From IMG/VR virus record IMGVR_UViG_3300027971_000160, positions 1 through 30,536 of that record: a DNA stretch of 30,536 nucleotides, one strand, 5' to 3'. Origin of the DNA: a virus. Position 1 is the first letter of the stretch. Every line of letters begins with the position of its first letter. The position numbers and the translations under genes were made by a program. The notes under the pieces are model-generated. The model made no database searches, had not been told where the DNA came from, and worked only from the letters and a program-made list of their open reading frames with translations. Positions 9,734 to 19,119 of the stretch are shown here, piece by piece.

Positions 9734-10025
9734 TTTGTTCTTGTTTGCTTGTTAATACTATTGACCACGCTTCGATTGTGTTAAAATACTTCGTCACACC
9801 TTCGGGTGAATTCCACTCACGACCACGAAGATTGTAACTTACTTCGACAACGTCACCTTTGTTCAGGTTCGCGACAAGGTCACATTTGTCGTTCACGACT
9901 TGAAAGGTGATAAATTGTGGATAACTTTCGTTTTCCGTCTTGATGGTCAATTCTTGTTTTTTGAATTTCTCCGACACCACATAAAGGGGTGTAATTTGGA
10001 CAACCGTCCCTTTTTCTTTGTTCAT
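9705..10025 (-). CDS. Single-stranded DNA-binding protein-like (DUF3127/OB-fold)
   Basis: The 106-residue protein opens with beta strands (GTVVQITPLYVVSEKFKKQE), carries FITFQVVNDKCDL and GDVVEVSYNLRGREWNS, all matching the DUF3127 OB-fold proteins found in Bacteroidetes and their phages. It ends in EQNEVDDDLPF, the acidic tail with terminal Pro-Phe that bacterial SSBs use to recruit partner enzymes. It lies at the end of the recombination module, close to an annealing protein and exonuclease, which fits binding of single strands during replication and recombination. Confidence 0.85.
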   Translation of the reverse strand: MNKEKGTVVQITPLYVVSEKFKKQELTIKTENESYPQFITFQVVNDKCDLVANLNKGDVVEVSYNLRGREWNSPEGVTKYFNTIEAWSIVLTSKQEQNEVDDDLPF

Positions 10026-11253: not shown

Positions 11254-11453
11254 ATTTCTTCAAGTTTTTGACGGACATTCAACCAATAAATAAAATCACG
11301 CGATTTGATATCGATGTCTTTCATCGTTTCTCGCAATAAGACAAGCGCACACGCTTTTCTTGTTTTGAGCGTTTTTTCATCCGAACTGAATTCCACGAAG
11401 GAAAACAAATCGAATAGGTATTGCGCCCGTTCTTCGGCATTCATTGTTGTCAT
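11250..11453 (-). CDS. Hypothetical protein between ERF and exonuclease (67 aa)
   Basis: The 67-residue helical protein (NAEERAQYLFDLFSFVEFSS at the start, MKDIDIKSRDFIYWLNVRQK near the end) is joined to both neighbours by ATGA overlaps, so it is co-translated with the annealing protein and exonuclease. No domain is recognised. Its position suggests an accessory role in recombination or just operon packing. Confidence 0.75.
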   Translation of the reverse strand: MTTMNAEERAQYLFDLFSFVEFSSDEKTLKTRKACALVLLRETMKDIDIKSRDFIYWLNVRQKLEEI

Positions 11454-11995
11454 TGTAGTAATGGGTGTTTCGATTGTTCATCGGTTAGTAAATAGGTAGC
11501 TTTCAATTTCTCAATTGTAAACTTTCCTTGTTGAATCGCATCCAAGGCGTTGATAAATCGGTTATTGTCAAGCGTTGGTTTCGCCGTAGGTTTCGAAGCT
11601 TCATTCCCATCGTCATCGATTGCTTGAAGCGACAACAATGATTGAAGCGTTCCACGTCTGAAGTACGTTATGCACGACAAAAGTTTTTGCGGGTCGACGA
11701 TGTTCACGGGAATTTCCATGCATGATTCGACAAGTTCCCCTGAATCGATGTCAATGATTTGAGTAAAGACCAGGTTCGCTTTGACTGGTTGCAAAAGTAC
11801 TAACCCATTCGCCAACAAAATTGGTTCAACGGTTTCAAGCAACGCGTTAATGTCAGCGTAACTTTTTTTGAAATGTGGATTGGTTGCATTCTTGGAAACC
11901 TTTCCAATTTGTTGCTTCGCTTGATGAAGCTTGTGGAACAACTTCTTCGGTTGTTCGGTTGTGACTTTCTCCGCCACGGGTTTTGTAATCGCCAT
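11450..11995 (-). CDS. erf: ERF-family single-strand annealing protein
   Basis: The 181-residue protein contains the ERF signature: LFHKLHQAKQQIGKVSKNAT, then HFKKSYADINALLETVEPIL and LANGLVLLQPV. This is followed by a strand pair (VFTQIIDIDSGELVE) and ITYFRRGTLQSLLSLQAIDDD, which matches the 'a-T-Y-a-R-R-Y-a-L-x-a-l-x-g-i-a-x-x-x-D-D-D' end of the ERF domain. It anneals homologous single strands for genome circularisation or repair. Lysine-rich N- and C-terminal tails flank the domain. The YqaJ exonuclease downstream is the expected partner. Confidence 0.9.
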   Translation of the reverse strand: MAITKPVAEKVTTEQPKKLFHKLHQAKQQIGKVSKNATNPHFKKSYADINALLETVEPILLANGLVLLQPVKANLVFTQIIDIDSGELVESCMEIPVNIVDPQKLLSCITYFRRGTLQSLLSLQAIDDDGNEASKPTAKPTLDNNRFINALDAIQQGKFTIEKLKATYLLTDEQSKHPLLQ

Positions 11996-13318: not shown

Positions 13319-15664
13319 TTATTGGTTTTGATTTGATGGTGAATTTTCTGATAAAACAAAATAGCGTCCCAGGTGACTTCTACCTTCGCTATATTTTAAC
13401 CCCTTGAAACTTGCATAGGCGCGAACCCATTTCAAGAATTTAACCGATGAAAGGTCTTTGAATGAATTCGTTTCGGATTGGAATTCCTGAAGTTTAGATT
13501 GGTTGTAATTGTATTCTTCAAGTTTCAAATGACCTTCTTTCGCGAATTCGTAAAAATCTTTGCACGTTACTTGAATCAATCGTTTTGCATCTGCGTTGAT
13601 GGATTTGGTTTTCAACAATCCTATGTTAAGATATTTTTGAAGGTTGGCAATCATGTAATTGTCAAAGCGTGACCATTCCTCCCCATCCCATTGGTCGAAT
13701 AGTAGTTTCCCGTATTCATCCAAAGGTGACCGTTCGGCATTGAAATACTGAAAAAATTCAAGTTCATGTCTTCGTCGGTCGTGGGATGAACCCGCACCCG
13801 CAATCACATAGTTGGTTGTTATTACAATTTTAGGTGAACGCTCGAAAGGAATCCAAACTTCGTCTTTGTTTTTTCGATTGACCGCGATTCCTTGCGTGAC
13901 AATGCTGAATAATTGCTCGAAATCGAAGTTCTTTTTTACATCGTCGAAAGCGAGAATCTGCGTGTCGAGGTTCACGCGTTGGTAAACAAAATCGTTTTTC
14001 AAAGAATTAAATTGCTTTCCATCAATCGTTACAATGTTCCTAAAGTAACCCAGCGCGGTCAACATCAATGATTTTCCCGAACCTCCGTTCGCGTTGTCAT
14101 CGATTTCTTGGTCGTTGAAAATAATTGCTTTTTGGTCGGTTTTGTCCTTAAAGGTGTGCATCAAATAACCAAGGGTGGATTCGAGGGCGTTTGTTCGGTC
14201 GGGGTCTTCGTTGCTTACCTTGGAAATGAAATTTTGAAAGTCGTTGTCATGTTCGTCAACAACCTTGAATTCACGGGTTAAAATTTGATTTTCCCAAATG
14301 TAACCGTCCACATCGATGTAACTAATCAACCGCGTTCCTTTCTTGCTGACTTCGACCACCCCATTGGTGAATGGAATAAACGAAATGTTTTGACGGTCTT
14401 GAAGCATCTTCAGGTTGATGGATTCAATCATGTTCAAATGATTCTCGCTAAATAAATAAGTCGACCTGGAACAATGATTCCAAACGGATATTTCACATCG
14501 CGATTCAAGATATTTCAATACAAAATCTTTAATTTGCTCCGCGCTTGACAGTTTTACTTTGTTTTCTTGAACGCGAACAAATGTCGGGGAAAGGGATTCT
14601 TCGGGGTAAAATTTTGCGAATCCGTGCTTTGATAAAAAATTGGAATAAAGGTTCGGTTCAATCGTTATTTTGTCGTTGTTTTTAATCCAAAAAAAATCAT
14701 CCGAAGTTGAAATGTCATCCTTGATTTCATTGATTTGTTCTTCGTCAACATTCAAGGAACTTTTTATTTCCTTGGTTGAAATCCCTTGTTTGATTTTCAT
14801 TTTCAAACGGGAAATTTTGTCCGAATCTTCGAAGTATTTTGACCTGAATTCGGCGGTTCGATAAGCGCTTTTGATGGTTGTCACCAATTCAAGTTGGGTG
14901 AAATCTTCACACACGAATGACCCCAGGTAATGTTCCGCGCTTTCCCTTTCGATTCCGTATTCGCATAAACAAGCGGAAAGCTTAAAAATATAAATGTTCC
15001 TTGAACCGCTGACGAACGAACAACCAAAATCGAACTTCATCACCCTTTCAATAATTTTGTTTTCATCCGTCAAGCGAACTACTGGGGGACGTTCAATAAA
15101 CTGAAAACCGACTTCGCTTTCAATGGTTTCAAAGGTTTCGCAAAACTCATTGATGTAAGCTTCGGGATCGAATGATTCAAAGCAAACCCGAGAAACATTC
15201 TTGGAGGTTGCATCGAAATGTTCGTTGTCAAAAAACTTTTCCAAAGCGTTGAATCTTCGCTTGTGTTCATCCTTATTTGATGGTGGGATTCGAACAATGA
15301 CTTTCAACCCATTTCCCGATGGGGAAACAAAGACCATAAACACAAACGGTAAACTTTGAAATTTTTTCCGTTCGCTTTGCATTGTCACCGCATCGGGGTA
15401 ATTGTCAAAATCCAAAACACACAACCCCGAATGTTCAATCAATCCGTTGTCGCTTCGTTCGGAGAATGTCCCATTGAACATAATTGCCAACAATGAATTT
15501 TTGACCGCGCTTGATTTTTCGTCTAAAGACCGAAGCTTGTTAATTTTTGAAATTAGGTCAGGATAACCGTTTTTTATTCGCTCGTAAACTTCCAAAACAC
15601 TCATTGTGTAGGGTGTTTCTTTGGAATTGAATAAGCTTTTGAAAATTGATATTTTGGGAATCAT
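13319..15664 (-). CDS. Primase/SF3 helicase fusion with VirE_N/BT4734-type N-terminus
   Basis: The ATG at 15664 gives a 781-residue protein. Residues about 55-180 match the VirE_N/BT4734 primase-like domain: NGLIEHSGLCVLDFDNYPDA (DFD at 85-87) and VSPSGNGLKVIVR (114-126). Near residue 528 a Walker A motif NGGSGKSL is followed by a Walker B-type LAFDDVKKNFDFEQL, and further on by SPKIVITTNYVIAG and SHDRRRHELEFF, the SF3 motif C and arginine finger. The family primes and unwinds at phage origins. The iterons and the DnaA-like gene lie immediately upstream, and a hairpin with a T tract ends 11 bases before the ATG. Longer frames open to 15697 but would put the start inside the hairpin's T tract. 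Confidence 0.9.
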   Translation of the reverse strand: MIPKISIFKSLFNSKETPYTMSVLEVYERIKNGYPDLISKINKLRSLDEKSSAVKNSLLAIMFNGTFSERSDNGLIEHSGLCVLDFDNYPDAVTMQSERKKFQSLPFVFMVFVSPSGNGLKVIVRIPPSNKDEHKRRFNALEKFFDNEHFDATSKNVSRVCFESFDPEAYINEFCETFETIESEVGFQFIERPPVVRLTDENKIIERVMKFDFGCSFVSGSRNIYIFKLSACLCEYGIERESAEHYLGSFVCEDFTQLELVTTIKSAYRTAEFRSKYFEDSDKISRLKMKIKQGISTKEIKSSLNVDEEQINEIKDDISTSDDFFWIKNNDKITIEPNLYSNFLSKHGFAKFYPEESLSPTFVRVQENKVKLSSAEQIKDFVLKYLESRCEISVWNHCSRSTYLFSENHLNMIESINLKMLQDRQNISFIPFTNGVVEVSKKGTRLISYIDVDGYIWENQILTREFKVVDEHDNDFQNFISKVSNEDPDRTNALESTLGYLMHTFKDKTDQKAIIFNDQEIDDNANGGSGKSLMLTALGYFRNIVTIDGKQFNSLKNDFVYQRVNLDTQILAFDDVKKNFDFEQLFSIVTQGIAVNRKNKDEVWIPFERSPKIVITTNYVIAGAGSSHDRRRHELEFFQYFNAERSPLDEYGKLLFDQWDGEEWSRFDNYMIANLQKYLNIGLLKTKSINADAKRLIQVTCKDFYEFAKEGHLKLEEYNYNQSKLQEFQSETNSFKDLSSVKFLKWVRAYASFKGLKYSEGRSHLGRYFVLSENSPSNQNQ

Positions 15665-15674
15665 GAAAATTCGT

Positions 15675-15728
15675 AAAAAAAAGGGGTGGGTTTTCACCGT
15701 GGCGCGCGGTTACTAACCCTTTCCCCTA
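15675..15728 (-). terminator. Strong GC-rich hairpin with T8 tract just before the primase start
   Basis: On the minus strand the RNA reads AGGGG-AAA-GGGTT, an inner hairpin (ACCG/CGGT), then AACCC-A-CCCCT followed by T8 (plus-strand A8 at 15675-15682). The stem plus T tract has the form of an intrinsic terminator, yet it ends about 11 bases before the primase ATG. It may separate the DnaA-like operon from the replication operon, with a promoter between them, or act as an attenuator or structured leader. Confidence 0.65.
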
Positions 15729-15768
15729 AAAAATTTGTTTGCGCCATAACAAATGTAACTAATTTATT

Positions 15769-15776
15769 CAAATATA
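15769..15776 (-). promoter_or_regulatory. Possible Bacteroidetes-type -7 box (TATATTTG) before primase
   Basis: The minus strand reads TATATTTG, an exact TAnnTTTG match. It lies next to the iterons and about 100 bases ahead of the primase start. No TTG sits at 17-23 bases upstream, so the -33 element is missing or degenerate. Initiation here would produce a leader containing the hairpin at 15675-15728. Confidence 0.35.
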
Positions 15777-15782
15777 AACAAT

Positions 15783-15956
15783 CCGTGACAAACTTTATTT
15801 TGTGTCACGCCCTTTGTCACGGCTATTTCCTTTATTGGCATTGGATTTGACCCCATCCGTGACAGCGTGACACAACTTTTTGACCCCTCCCCCTTGTTTT
15901 TGAGCGATGTTGTCAACGACATAAGGTTTGCGACGTTTTTTTCATTTGTGTCACGC
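15783..15956. repeat. Iteron-like cluster (6 copies of a CGTGACA motif), probable replication origin
   Basis: The motif occurs in two related forms. CCGTGACAAA-type copies lie at 15783-15792, 15813-15823 (opposite strand) and 15857-15864 (partial). GCGTGACACAAA-type copies lie at 15798-15810 (opposite strand), 15865-15875 and 15945-15956 (opposite strand). Six copies in about 175 bases is far above chance, and the gap lies between a DnaA-domain-IV-like gene and the primase/helicase gene. This is the usual design of a phage origin bound by its own initiator. A short run of AT-rich DNA (15721-15780) follows on the primase side. Confidence 0.75.
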
Positions 15957-15957
15957 G

Positions 15958-16365
15958 TCAAATCGTGTCGAAAATTGCTGAAATTTCCATTTTGTTCAAT
16001 GGTCGGTTTAGTTCTTCAAGCGTTTTTTTCGTGAATCGACCGCGAATCGTAACTGAATTTTCAGTGACCGTGCAATTGAAGTAACGTGTTTTCGGAAGTC
16101 GACCTTCGTCACCTACCAATTCGGGCAATGGATGGATTGCGCGAATGTATTCCTGGTCTTTCGTGAACGTCCATCGTTCGTGTTGTTTGAGCGCGTGAAT
16201 TACGCTTGTGTGGTTACGTCCGAAAAGCTTTCCGATTTCCGACAACGTCAAATCGGTTGTTCCGTGTAAAATGTGCATCAAATAAAAACGCTTGTAAACG
16301 TCTTCACGAATGCGACTTGGTTTATTTAATTTGAATTCTTCGATTAATTCTTCGATGTGGTTCAT
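15958..16365 (-). CDS. DnaA domain IV-like initiator/DNA-binding protein (135 aa)
   Basis: Residues 18-65 carry RIREDVYKRFYLMHILHGTT and TLSEIGKLFGRNHTSVIHAL plus KQHERW. This closely follows the DnaA domain IV signature (an Ile-Gly-x-x-Phe/Phe-Gly, then H-T/S-V-x-x-A pattern) that contacts DnaA boxes. The AAA+ domain of DnaA is absent, so this is a DNA-binding module only. The C-terminal half (TRYFNCTVTENSVTIRGRFT) is beta-type and may be for oligomerisation. It lies directly next to the CGTGACA repeats, which are its most likely binding sites. It overlaps the 47-residue gene upstream with an ATGA joint. Confidence 0.78.
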   Translation of the reverse strand: MNHIEELIEEFKLNKPSRIREDVYKRFYLMHILHGTTDLTLSEIGKLFGRNHTSVIHALKQHERWTFTKDQEYIRAIHPLPELVGDEGRLPKTRYFNCTVTENSVTIRGRFTKKTLEELNRPLNKMEISAIFDTI

Positions 16366-17609: not shown

Positions 17610-17659
17610 GTAAGGGAATAACCTTAAATAATCACCGCAAACGTAAGGGAATAACCTTA
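17610..17659. repeat. Two 17-bp direct repeats 33 bp apart
   Basis: GTAAGGGAATAACCTTA occurs exactly at 17610-17626 and 17643-17659. Each copy contains the inverted pair TAAGG/CCTTA. The 33-base period is about three helical turns, so proteins bound to both would lie on the same face. The second copy covers the stop codon of the metallophosphoesterase. They may be binding sites or weak terminator-like hairpins. Confidence 0.75.
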
Positions 17660-18691
17660 GAAAATATGCGTCAATCGAGCAATTTGCCCGTGCAAAGGAT
17701 GGTGAACGAATCCTTCAATCGCTTGTGGGTTGTGCTGGTAACCATTGCGGTGATGCCATGAATCCGTTCCCGACGGCGACCGTAAAGATTCAACAGTCAC
17801 ACCAATAAAGTCCTTTGCGACCTTATGATGGACGTGGTGGGTGTAGACGTAGCGGTGTTTTGTTCGCGCCCATTCCAGGGGGAATTCTTGAGCCATCAAC
17901 AATGGCAAATCGTGAAGCTTCGCGCCGTCCCCGTGGGTTGTTCCGATTAGGTTCTTTCCATAGATGAAACCCTTGCGATGGGCGATGGAACAATCGAAGG
18001 TAATGTTCGGAGAATTTCGAAACCATGATTGAATGACATCCGCTAAAAAGAATCCATTCGTGTAGTCGTGATTGGATGGATTGAAAGTAAAATGAACGTC
18101 AGCGATTGCGACAAGCTTTTCAAGTATGTCAACGTAAAGTCGTTTCGCGGTTAAAAAATTGTCGTACCACATGCCGTCCGTGTCTTGTGGTGTCCCTCCA
18201 GTCGTGGTTCGTTTGGGTGTGTCAATGTGAAGAATGTCATTGCCACCGATAAATAAAATTTTCTCGATGTTGAATCCTGAAGCTTTGTCAAGAATTCCTT
18301 GAATCCCTTCGTGAACGCGCTTCACCGCGATTTGTTGGTTGTAATCTTCACCCGTTTCGAATGCCGTTGCCAACTTACCTATGTGAATGTCCGCGGGATC
18401 GACAACCAAAAGATGACCGTCGGTTGATTTGGTTCGTGTTATGTTCGGGTAAATGGGTGAATGCGTCTTCAGGTCTTGAAGAATGTCATCCTTTAATTGT
18501 AAAAGTTTCGCTTCACCTTCGTTGACGTAGGCGGGATTCGTAAAGAACAACGAAGTTTTCTTTGATTTCAACCAACCGTGCTTCACTGATGTATGGTCGA
18601 TGTTTTGTTCATCGCAATTTTGTTTAATTGCGCGAAATTGTACGACAACGTCCATTTCCTCGGGCGTCAATCGTGGTCGAAATTTAGCCAT
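17657..18691 (-). CDS. Calcineurin-like metallophosphoesterase (344 aa)
   Basis: From the ATG at 18691 (a TTG one codon earlier is possible) the protein has a helical N-terminal domain of about 90 residues, perhaps a DNA-binding domain, followed by the metallophosphoesterase motifs. These are DPADIHIGK (D101, H103), GGND (149-152), NPSNHD (204-209), THGDG (H253) and THHVHH (284-289). This order is that of calcineurin-like phosphoesterases such as Mre11/SbcD-type DNA nucleases and phage homologues. It overlaps the spanin stop (TGATG). It may process DNA ends or cyclic nucleotide signals; the substrate is not decided by the sequence. Confidence 0.88.
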   Translation of the reverse strand: MAKFRPRLTPEEMDVVVQFRAIKQNCDEQNIDHTSVKHGWLKSKKTSLFFTNPAYVNEGEAKLLQLKDDILQDLKTHSPIYPNITRTKSTDGHLLVVDPADIHIGKLATAFETGEDYNQQIAVKRVHEGIQGILDKASGFNIEKILFIGGNDILHIDTPKRTTTGGTPQDTDGMWYDNFLTAKRLYVDILEKLVAIADVHFTFNPSNHDYTNGFFLADVIQSWFRNSPNITFDCSIAHRKGFIYGKNLIGTTHGDGAKLHDLPLLMAQEFPLEWARTKHRYVYTHHVHHKVAKDFIGVTVESLRSPSGTDSWHHRNGYQHNPQAIEGFVHHPLHGQIARLTHIF

Positions 18692-19119
18692 CAAAGGTGT
18701 TTTGTCAAGACAAGCTTGATTAATTTAGGCGAAAAGATACCAAGAATAAATGACAACAACAACCACCACCAATTGATTCGGTATTTTACGACTTCGTGAT
18801 TCTTCGTGATGGTCTTTCCTTTGATTCGCTGAATCTTAATGCGCTCCTTGTAAGCAATGCGTGTTTGAAACCTAGTCTTCGGAACATACACGTTTCGAAA
18901 ATTTATCACGGTGTCTTTGGTCGTAATGAATTTTTCGTATACAATCGAATCAAATCGTATCACGGGGAACGAATCAAGCGTTGTGATTCGAATGGTGTCA
19001 GTGTCCTGAATGACCTTCATCCCGTATTTCAATGCTTTCGAATAGTGACGTTGCGCCTTGCGTTCGGAGGAACATGAAACCATCAAGCAAACAATAAATA
19101 AAGCGATTAAATTTTTCAT
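18691..19119 (-). CDS. Unimolecular spanin-like lysis protein (lipoprotein plus C-terminal membrane segment)
   Basis: The 142-residue protein has a signal sequence ending in LMVSC, with the lipidated Cys at 16. A long charged beta-type region (residues 20-115) follows, and then a C-terminal hydrophobic anchor NWWWLLLSFILGIFS (116-130) with a basic end. An outer-membrane lipoprotein fused in one chain to an inner-membrane anchor is the definition of a u-spanin (T1 gp11 type), which fuses the two membranes in the last step of lysis. Its position, directly after the amidase and holin genes, fits. The length is close to that of T1 gp11 (131 residues). Confidence 0.72.
   Translation of the reverse strand: MKNLIALFIVCLMVSCSSERKAQRHYSKALKYGMKVIQDTDTIRITTLDSFPVIRFDSIVYEKFITTKDTVINFRNVYVPKTRFQTRIAYKERIKIQRIKGKTITKNHEVVKYRINWWWLLLSFILGIFSPKLIKLVLTKHL

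Follow-up and report, generated by a model that had tools for sequence, protein, structure and literature searches.

Lineage-specific repeats in a conserved layout beside a phage primase-helicase gene: a probable iteron origin with the primase-helicase as its likely reader

The repeat array and its flanking genes

The window, by which we mean the whole stretch of DNA analysed here, is a complete IMG/VR virus record of 30,536 bases. Two genes on its minus strand concern us: a primase-helicase gene (13319 to 15664; 781 residues in the form used here), recognised by BT4734-like_N, PriCT_1 and SF3-type motifs and the likely reader of the repeats described below, and a stand-alone DnaA-domain-IV-like gene of 135 residues (DnaA-IV; 15958 to 16365; PF08299, E=2e-10), which we take to be an accessory neighbour. 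The gap between them spans 15665 to 15957 if the primase begins at the ATG at 15664. This is probably its start, rather than GTG 15697: many relatives align with the longer frame only from its residue 13 onward, and GTG 15697 would fall inside the leader hairpin. An Erf-like annealing protein (11450 to 11995, minus strand) and an exonuclease-family protein (17657 to 18694, minus strand) bracket the replication genes.

An earlier note on this DNA had described six copies of two related motifs, in both orientations, within about 175 non-coding bases, with a 135-residue DnaA_C helix-turn-helix (HTH) protein on one side and the primase on the other. Both descriptions hold: exact CGTGACA occurs at 15784, 15803 (minus), 15815 (minus), 15858, 15866 and 15949 (minus), within about 175 bp, and the flanking proteins match PF08299 and BT4734-like_N plus PriCT_1, respectively. 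Eight further copies lie elsewhere in the window, giving 14 in total where shuffles predict 5.84 (a total of 14 is reached in 2 of 100 shuffles). Within the gap, 42 repeated 7-mer pairs were counted against a shuffle mean of 8.1, a number reached by none of 200 dinucleotide shuffles, and the most repeat-rich 300-bp stretch of the window sits here (score 45; median 11, 95th percentile 22). The note was also right that the motif is not a classical DnaA box: TTWTNCACA has no exact match in the gap and only two in the window, at 9916 and 17580.

The window word can be written GTGACA(CA)AA. Its two flavours, CCGTGACAAA and GCGTGACACAAA, are present but not cleanly so, since there is also a single GCGTGACACAAC, ending in AAC, and a single CCGTGACA (at 15857), without the AAA end. 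Because two flavours recur in related groups that use other words, the arrangement looks like a design feature. Going from the DnaA-IV gene towards the primase, the motif scan places the outermost GCGTGACACAAA at 15945 to 15956 (minus), followed by a G-tract noted by eye (GGGGGAGGGG, 15884 to 15893, minus) that lies 5' of the tandem sites. The tandem pair, CCGTGACA and GCGTGACACAAC (starting at 15857 and 15865; 15857 to 15876, plus), has cores 8 bp apart, as do its counterparts in relatives. A conserved spacer element (15823 to 15856, minus), located with a model trained on the gaps, leads from the tandem pair to an inverted CCGTGACAAA (15813 to 15822, minus), whose place is also supported by the layout in relatives. 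A further GCGTGACACAAA (15799 to 15810, minus) and a last CCGTGACAAA (15783 to 15792, plus), both from the motif scan, complete the array. Runs of about 7 to 13 G, roughly 20 to 30 bp 5' of the tandem sites, were seen by eye in several relatives of different word classes, examples being the window itself and loci L003, L029, L264, L280 and L344.

The last site adjoins a promoter-like sequence for the primase gene, TTG-N21-TACATTTG (15750 to 15781, minus), which we take to resemble the Bacteroidota promoter consensus. Next comes a leader RNA (15675 to 15746, minus) that, by eye, may form an H-type pseudoknot ending in a U run, with stems UGGCGC/GCGCCA and AGGGG..GGGUU/AACCC.CCCCU. A scan for H-type pseudoknots whose second stem runs into a U run found them in 67 of 224 leaders, with 31 different stem sets, against 2 of 300 in the shuffle control (60 leaders, five shuffles each). 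The stems vary in sequence while pairing is kept (e.g. L003, L036, L276, L286, L344). By eye the window leader has these parts too, interrupted by internal loops, but it is not among the 67; as a plain hairpin its energy does not stand out (z -0.64), and Rfam gave no gathering-score match in the window and only chance-level matches to the leader. The pseudoknot leader is a possible attenuator, copy-control RNA or primer.

The AlphaFold model of the DnaA-IV protein (pLDDT 84.4) has DnaA domain IV as its best PDB matches (3pvp and 1j1v; probability 1.00, E only 5.8e-3 and 6e-2). An AAA+ domain for melting is absent from the 135 residues, in which the HTH alone was matched. R26 and H52 of the HTH are invariant in 53 aligned sequences, so the family probably binds DNA somewhere. 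The primase-helicase contains GGSGKS, FDDV and ITTN, which we take to be motifs of SF3/D5-type helicases; no Pfam helicase model matched, and its helicase part is 35% identical to Salinibacter primase-helicases. Winged-helix-like patterns were noted at residues 281-335 and 690-772. Given a poor structure model (pLDDT 63, worst in the helicase) and a structure search in which no match reached E<=0.001 (the best, at 2.4e-3, was a phage PrimPol) and none to a winged helix was convincing, "winged helix" here is our reading of a predicted helix-hairpin pattern.

Conserved layout and changing words among relatives

Relatives were gathered in four primase-query scans of viral contigs; adding one locus from a previous scan and the window itself brought the total to 256 loci. 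Many of these are stretches of one and the same contig, which were merged only if gap and primase agreed; merging left 108 distinct loci with both genes, the window included. In every one of these 108, all with sufficient DNA upstream, the DnaA-IV gene comes before the primase; the loci having been found via their primases, this count says nothing about distant primases. It is absent from no locus having at least 1,100 bases upstream, while 45 of the 256 (no DnaA-IV hit and less than 1,100 bases upstream) were classed as too short, so that a true absence there would be hidden. A nucleotide search of phage records found no match.

Gaps are 190-488 bp long, with one of 904 bp. The earlier note suggested looking in related phages for the same repeat beside the homologous gene. 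Richness in repeats is kept: 101 of the 108 gaps, the window's included, have an excess of repeated 7-mers at p<=0.005, the others being L015, L066, L069, L072, L073, L077 and L174 (in this last, only the final 400 of the 904 bases were scored). The word itself changes by lineage. In the window's nearest primase group it is GTTACAAA with GCGACAAA, and in other lineages GTGACGATA, ATGACGATA, ATGACGCAA with ATGACAAG, CACTACGATA and others.

Across these lineages the layout is kept: two tandem cores lie at a distance of 8 bp, an inverted core stands 42 bp from the nearer of the two, and the spacer has the consensus CTGAAAGTCAATACCACATTGGTTTATAGC. The tandem-spacer-inverted element was recognised in 98 of 108 gaps by a model trained on those same gaps; it is missing from L137 and from nine gaps with ATGACAAG only, in which the right half is rearranged. 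Of 75 distinct elements, 45 have an inverted core at 42 bp, 43 have one at 50 bp and 10 have one at 41 bp; the median for other distances is 0.

Might the repeats instead serve as operators through which the primase-helicase, or some other regulator, controls the primase promoter, with the origin elsewhere? The last site does adjoin the promoter-like sequence, and a leader RNA with a terminator follows in many relatives. However, the array spans about 170 bp, its core layout is kept in relatives, and Pedobacter L262 and both Salinibacter plasmids discussed below carry it downstream of the gene. We therefore regard an operator with the origin elsewhere as unlikely, although the array could be both origin and operator at once. 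As to the earlier note's suggestion of a probable phage origin, conservation, fixed layout, position and analogy give it partial support; GC skew is weak (downstream greater than upstream in 54 of 73 loci and 7 of 11 primase clusters).

The neighbouring proteins as candidate readers of the repeats

The earlier note had the DnaA-IV protein as the reader of the repeats, and a DnaA-IV initiator with the repeats as its boxes would be in keeping with the unbroken synteny, the DnaA-IV fold, the invariant R26 and H52, and one word class (TTTATCGTCACG) that resembles the DnaA box (TTATCCACA). Natural recombinants speak against it. The DnaA-IV protein of L003 is 86% identical to that of the window and keeps both its basic loop (PSRIRE) and the NHTSVI of its recognition helix, although 10 of 52 HTH residues differ; identity to the window is 53% for the L003 gap and 72% for the L003 primase. 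L003 uses the words of L007, L009, L019 and L024, to which its primase is 94-98% identical and its DnaA-IV only 64-67%. Similarly, L133 and L134 nearly have the DnaA-IV HTH of cluster P8, yet have another word and another primase. Words also differ with an identical HTH stretch in L225/L227, L076/L112 and L078/L081, and with few HTH changes in the window/L003 and L106/L133. Since the primases too are close in the three pairs with identical HTHs, these count against DnaA-IV and not for the primase.

Repeats and gene also occur apart. In a count of more distant loci (100 of 125 distinct loci, 25 being skipped for little upstream DNA), a cluster lies by the primase in 34 without any DnaA-IV hit in the locus (upstream in 26, downstream in 8), 13 show DnaA-IV immediately upstream but no cluster, and both are present in four. 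A further 43 lack a DnaA-IV hit as well as a cluster passing the test, and six have DnaA-IV elsewhere in the locus, one of these with a cluster; AT-rich loci, e.g. L353-L357, may pass the cluster test by composition alone. Arrays of GCAACAC lie upstream of the primase in L263, L264 and L337, and the tandem-spacer-inverted order is kept, by eye, in L264 and L338. In Pedobacter L262 the array is downstream of the primase and no DnaA-IV gene was found nearby. In the genomes behind L262-L265 and L267, the DnaA-IV profile matches only in frames of 465-507 residues, the size of full-length DnaA, and the match in MT837670 also sits in an open frame of DnaA length; the genome behind L266 has no DnaA-IV profile match, and that behind L261 has the stand-alone form. 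In a Flavobacterium Moomin phage and in MW202828, DnaA-IV-like genes lie several genes from the primase, with no clear array in the stretches examined.

Several observations were made along the way. In L374-L390 the DnaA-IV gene abuts the primase with no array, and in some of these loci (e.g. L377, L384) another DnaA-IV-like gene lies at about 4-5 kb from the start of the primase. In L261, about 700 bp upstream of the primase, iteron-like words (GTGACAAC) are found within the coding sequence of DnaA-IV as well. L284, L304, L305 and L316 have separate arrays of AATAAAGAA-like repeats downstream of the primase. Upstream of the primase in L355 there are 13 tandem copies of AGTTGGC, perhaps, as a guess, repeated coding sequence and not iterons.

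The two proteins might also share the array, DnaA-IV binding the common word half or the spacer and the primase-helicase reading the variable half. Both genes flank the gap in every one of the 108 distinct loci, the spacer is conserved and a TGAC half is widely shared; against this, similar arrays with traces of the spacer (by eye) are found without a DnaA-IV gene in the locus, e.g. in L264, and we think such a division of labour improbable.

Co-variation of words and proteins was assessed by Mantel tests on 24 units built from 105 loci (2,000 permutations, lowest p 0.0005). Word similarity correlates with similarity of the DnaA-IV HTH at 0.015, PrimPol at 0.206, the C-terminal domain at 0.347 and the middle domain at 0.489. 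The partial correlation is 0.289 for the C-terminal domain (p=0.0005; PrimPol, SF3 and DnaA-IV held constant) and 0.447 for the middle domain (p=0.0005; the same and the C-terminal domain held constant), as compared with 0.117 for PrimPol (p=0.051) and -0.031 for the DnaA-IV HTH (p=0.66). Linkage alone does not account for this, since PrimPol is the part closest to the gap and yet shows a lower correlation. Both domains stay at p=0.003, here the lowest possible, for words of 5, 6 and 7 bases and for 18, 24 and 43 units. For DnaA-IV the partial lies around or below zero with 18 and 24 units; with 43, the finest grouping, it is 0.15 for 6- and 7-mers (p=0.010), a point in favour of a DnaA-IV initiator. 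Taking together the words that change under identical or nearly identical HTHs, the null correlation at the main grouping and the separate occurrence of repeats and gene, we reject DnaA-IV as the reader in our main model and consider a DnaA-IV initiator quite improbable.

A second primase group, in which few loci have a DnaA-IV hit, points the same way as the partial correlations of the two primase-helicase domains. Eleven sequences with the GCAACAC word and 24 with AGTACAC (32 of the 67 loci being left out, 7 for carrying both words) differ without overlap in 12 columns, 9 of them within the two domains (Fisher p=1.9e-4, compared with variable columns outside these; as the sequences are related by descent, p-values here are guides only). 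Contrasts between clusters of the window's group are in part of the same kind. Clusters P6 and P9 share a word and differ in 6% of C-terminal columns (PrimPol 26%), P6 and P7 have different words and differ in 35% (PrimPol 15%), and P8 and P10, of the same DnaA-IV type with different words, differ in 55% (PrimPol 20%). P0/P1 and P3/P4 do not agree with the primase reading, and a pooled winged-helix ratio did not separate same-word (8) from different-word (70) cluster pairs (p=0.116, with word classes assigned by hand, at most three sequences per cluster and cluster P11 left out).

Neither protein accounts for some of the word changes within a single phage cluster. The two word classes of P8 are not told apart by any column of the primase or of DnaA-IV, and the same words occur with two types of wing; a neighbour gene downstream of the primase is a candidate reader of the P8 words. 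L230 has a GG-type C-terminal domain but ATGAC words.

On sequence comparison, the cleanest contrast of word and protein is that of the Salinibacter ruber plasmids pSR14 and pSR31. Their primase-helicases, which match the window protein only in the helicase part and the C-terminus, are 94% identical to each other, and each gene has an array directly downstream on a shared scaffold. The word is TGGTCCA (nine copies) in pSR14 and TGTCACA (11 copies) in pSR31, neither occurring in the other's gap. The proteins differ at 4 of 418 positions in residues 321-738 and at 9 of 34 in residues 739-772, the C-terminal wing (Fisher 1.5e-8), and the N-terminal primase also differs (30 of 320 positions, residues 1-320). 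No DnaA-IV match was found in the two plasmid records in a search without a known positive, which makes the empty answer uninformative. A Persicobacter plasmid had no repeat cluster in the stretch examined.

A proposed iteron origin, its parallels and its significance

Here, we propose that the repeats are probably iterons of the phage's replication origin, bound by its own SF3/D5-type primase-helicase via winged-helix domains. What the comparison itself provides is a conserved place and layout, lineage-specific words, and co-variation with two primase-helicase domains. As in iteron arrays, several copies of a short word lie in non-coding DNA beside a helicase gene, in the 101 repeat-rich loci, the window among them, and the helicase is of SF3/D5 type by the three motifs read in its sequence and by its Salinibacter match. 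The primase-helicase would bind through its C-terminal winged-helix domain, and probably also through one before the helicase. Helicase rings may then assemble across the tandem and inverted sites, the DNA would melt and the helicase would load itself. As the last site adjoins the promoter-like sequence, the primase-helicase would likely also autoregulate the adjacent promoter. The DnaA-IV protein would be a partner that can be separated from this system, and may regulate the replication operon or help melting.

How does this compare with known systems? Phage P4 alpha protein is a primase-helicase fusion that binds origin repeats. Set beside it by description, the window's system is alike in its fusion and origin repeats and unlike in its host group, and we know of no DnaA-IV neighbour of P4 alpha. 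With chromosomal DnaA and oriC it shares the domain IV fold of the neighbour; unlike them, the window protein has no AAA+ domain, the array has no exact classical box, and the words do not follow the protein.

The SaPI Rep and SCCmec Cch2 proteins recognise iteron origins with C-terminal domains (PMC7581432), and by analogy we read our array as the iteron origin of an SF3/D5-type initiator of this kind. The systems are alike in being mobile-element helicases with a C-terminal DNA-binding domain and iterons in adjoining non-coding DNA. They differ in that the system described here joins primase and helicase in a single protein, has its array in most cases upstream of the gene and, in the window's group, a stand-alone DnaA-IV gene ahead of it, and uses words that vary widely among close relatives. 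RepA iterons of another satellite are treated in PMC7145576. For a small-protein gene followed by a replication gene, the nearest parallel is pRN1, where the copy-control gene orf56 precedes the replication gene orf904 (PMC4234260); its authors state that they could not identify an origin by iterons and suggest a downstream stem-loop. The open-licence literature searched yielded the SaPI, SCCmec and pRN1 systems and no Bacteroidota phage origin of this kind.

A tempting annotation is also corrected by our findings, since a DnaA-like gene beside repeats is not necessarily their reader. The specificity of initiators for their origins is usually learned one system at a time. About 100 natural pairs of primase-helicase and origin word would allow a direct test of the recognition rules, and pSR14 and pSR31, with nine differences in the C-terminal wing, would serve the same test. 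More tentatively, and with rather more doubt than confidence, we suggest a widespread origin module in Bacteroidota phages, in which two winged-helix domains of a single primase-helicase each read one half of the word, the origins are orthogonal and the pseudoknot leader provides a primer or copy-number control. All iteron copies would then be replaced in step with the winged-helix domains and, if this two-domain module is true, its natural variants would be a set of mutually orthogonal origins.
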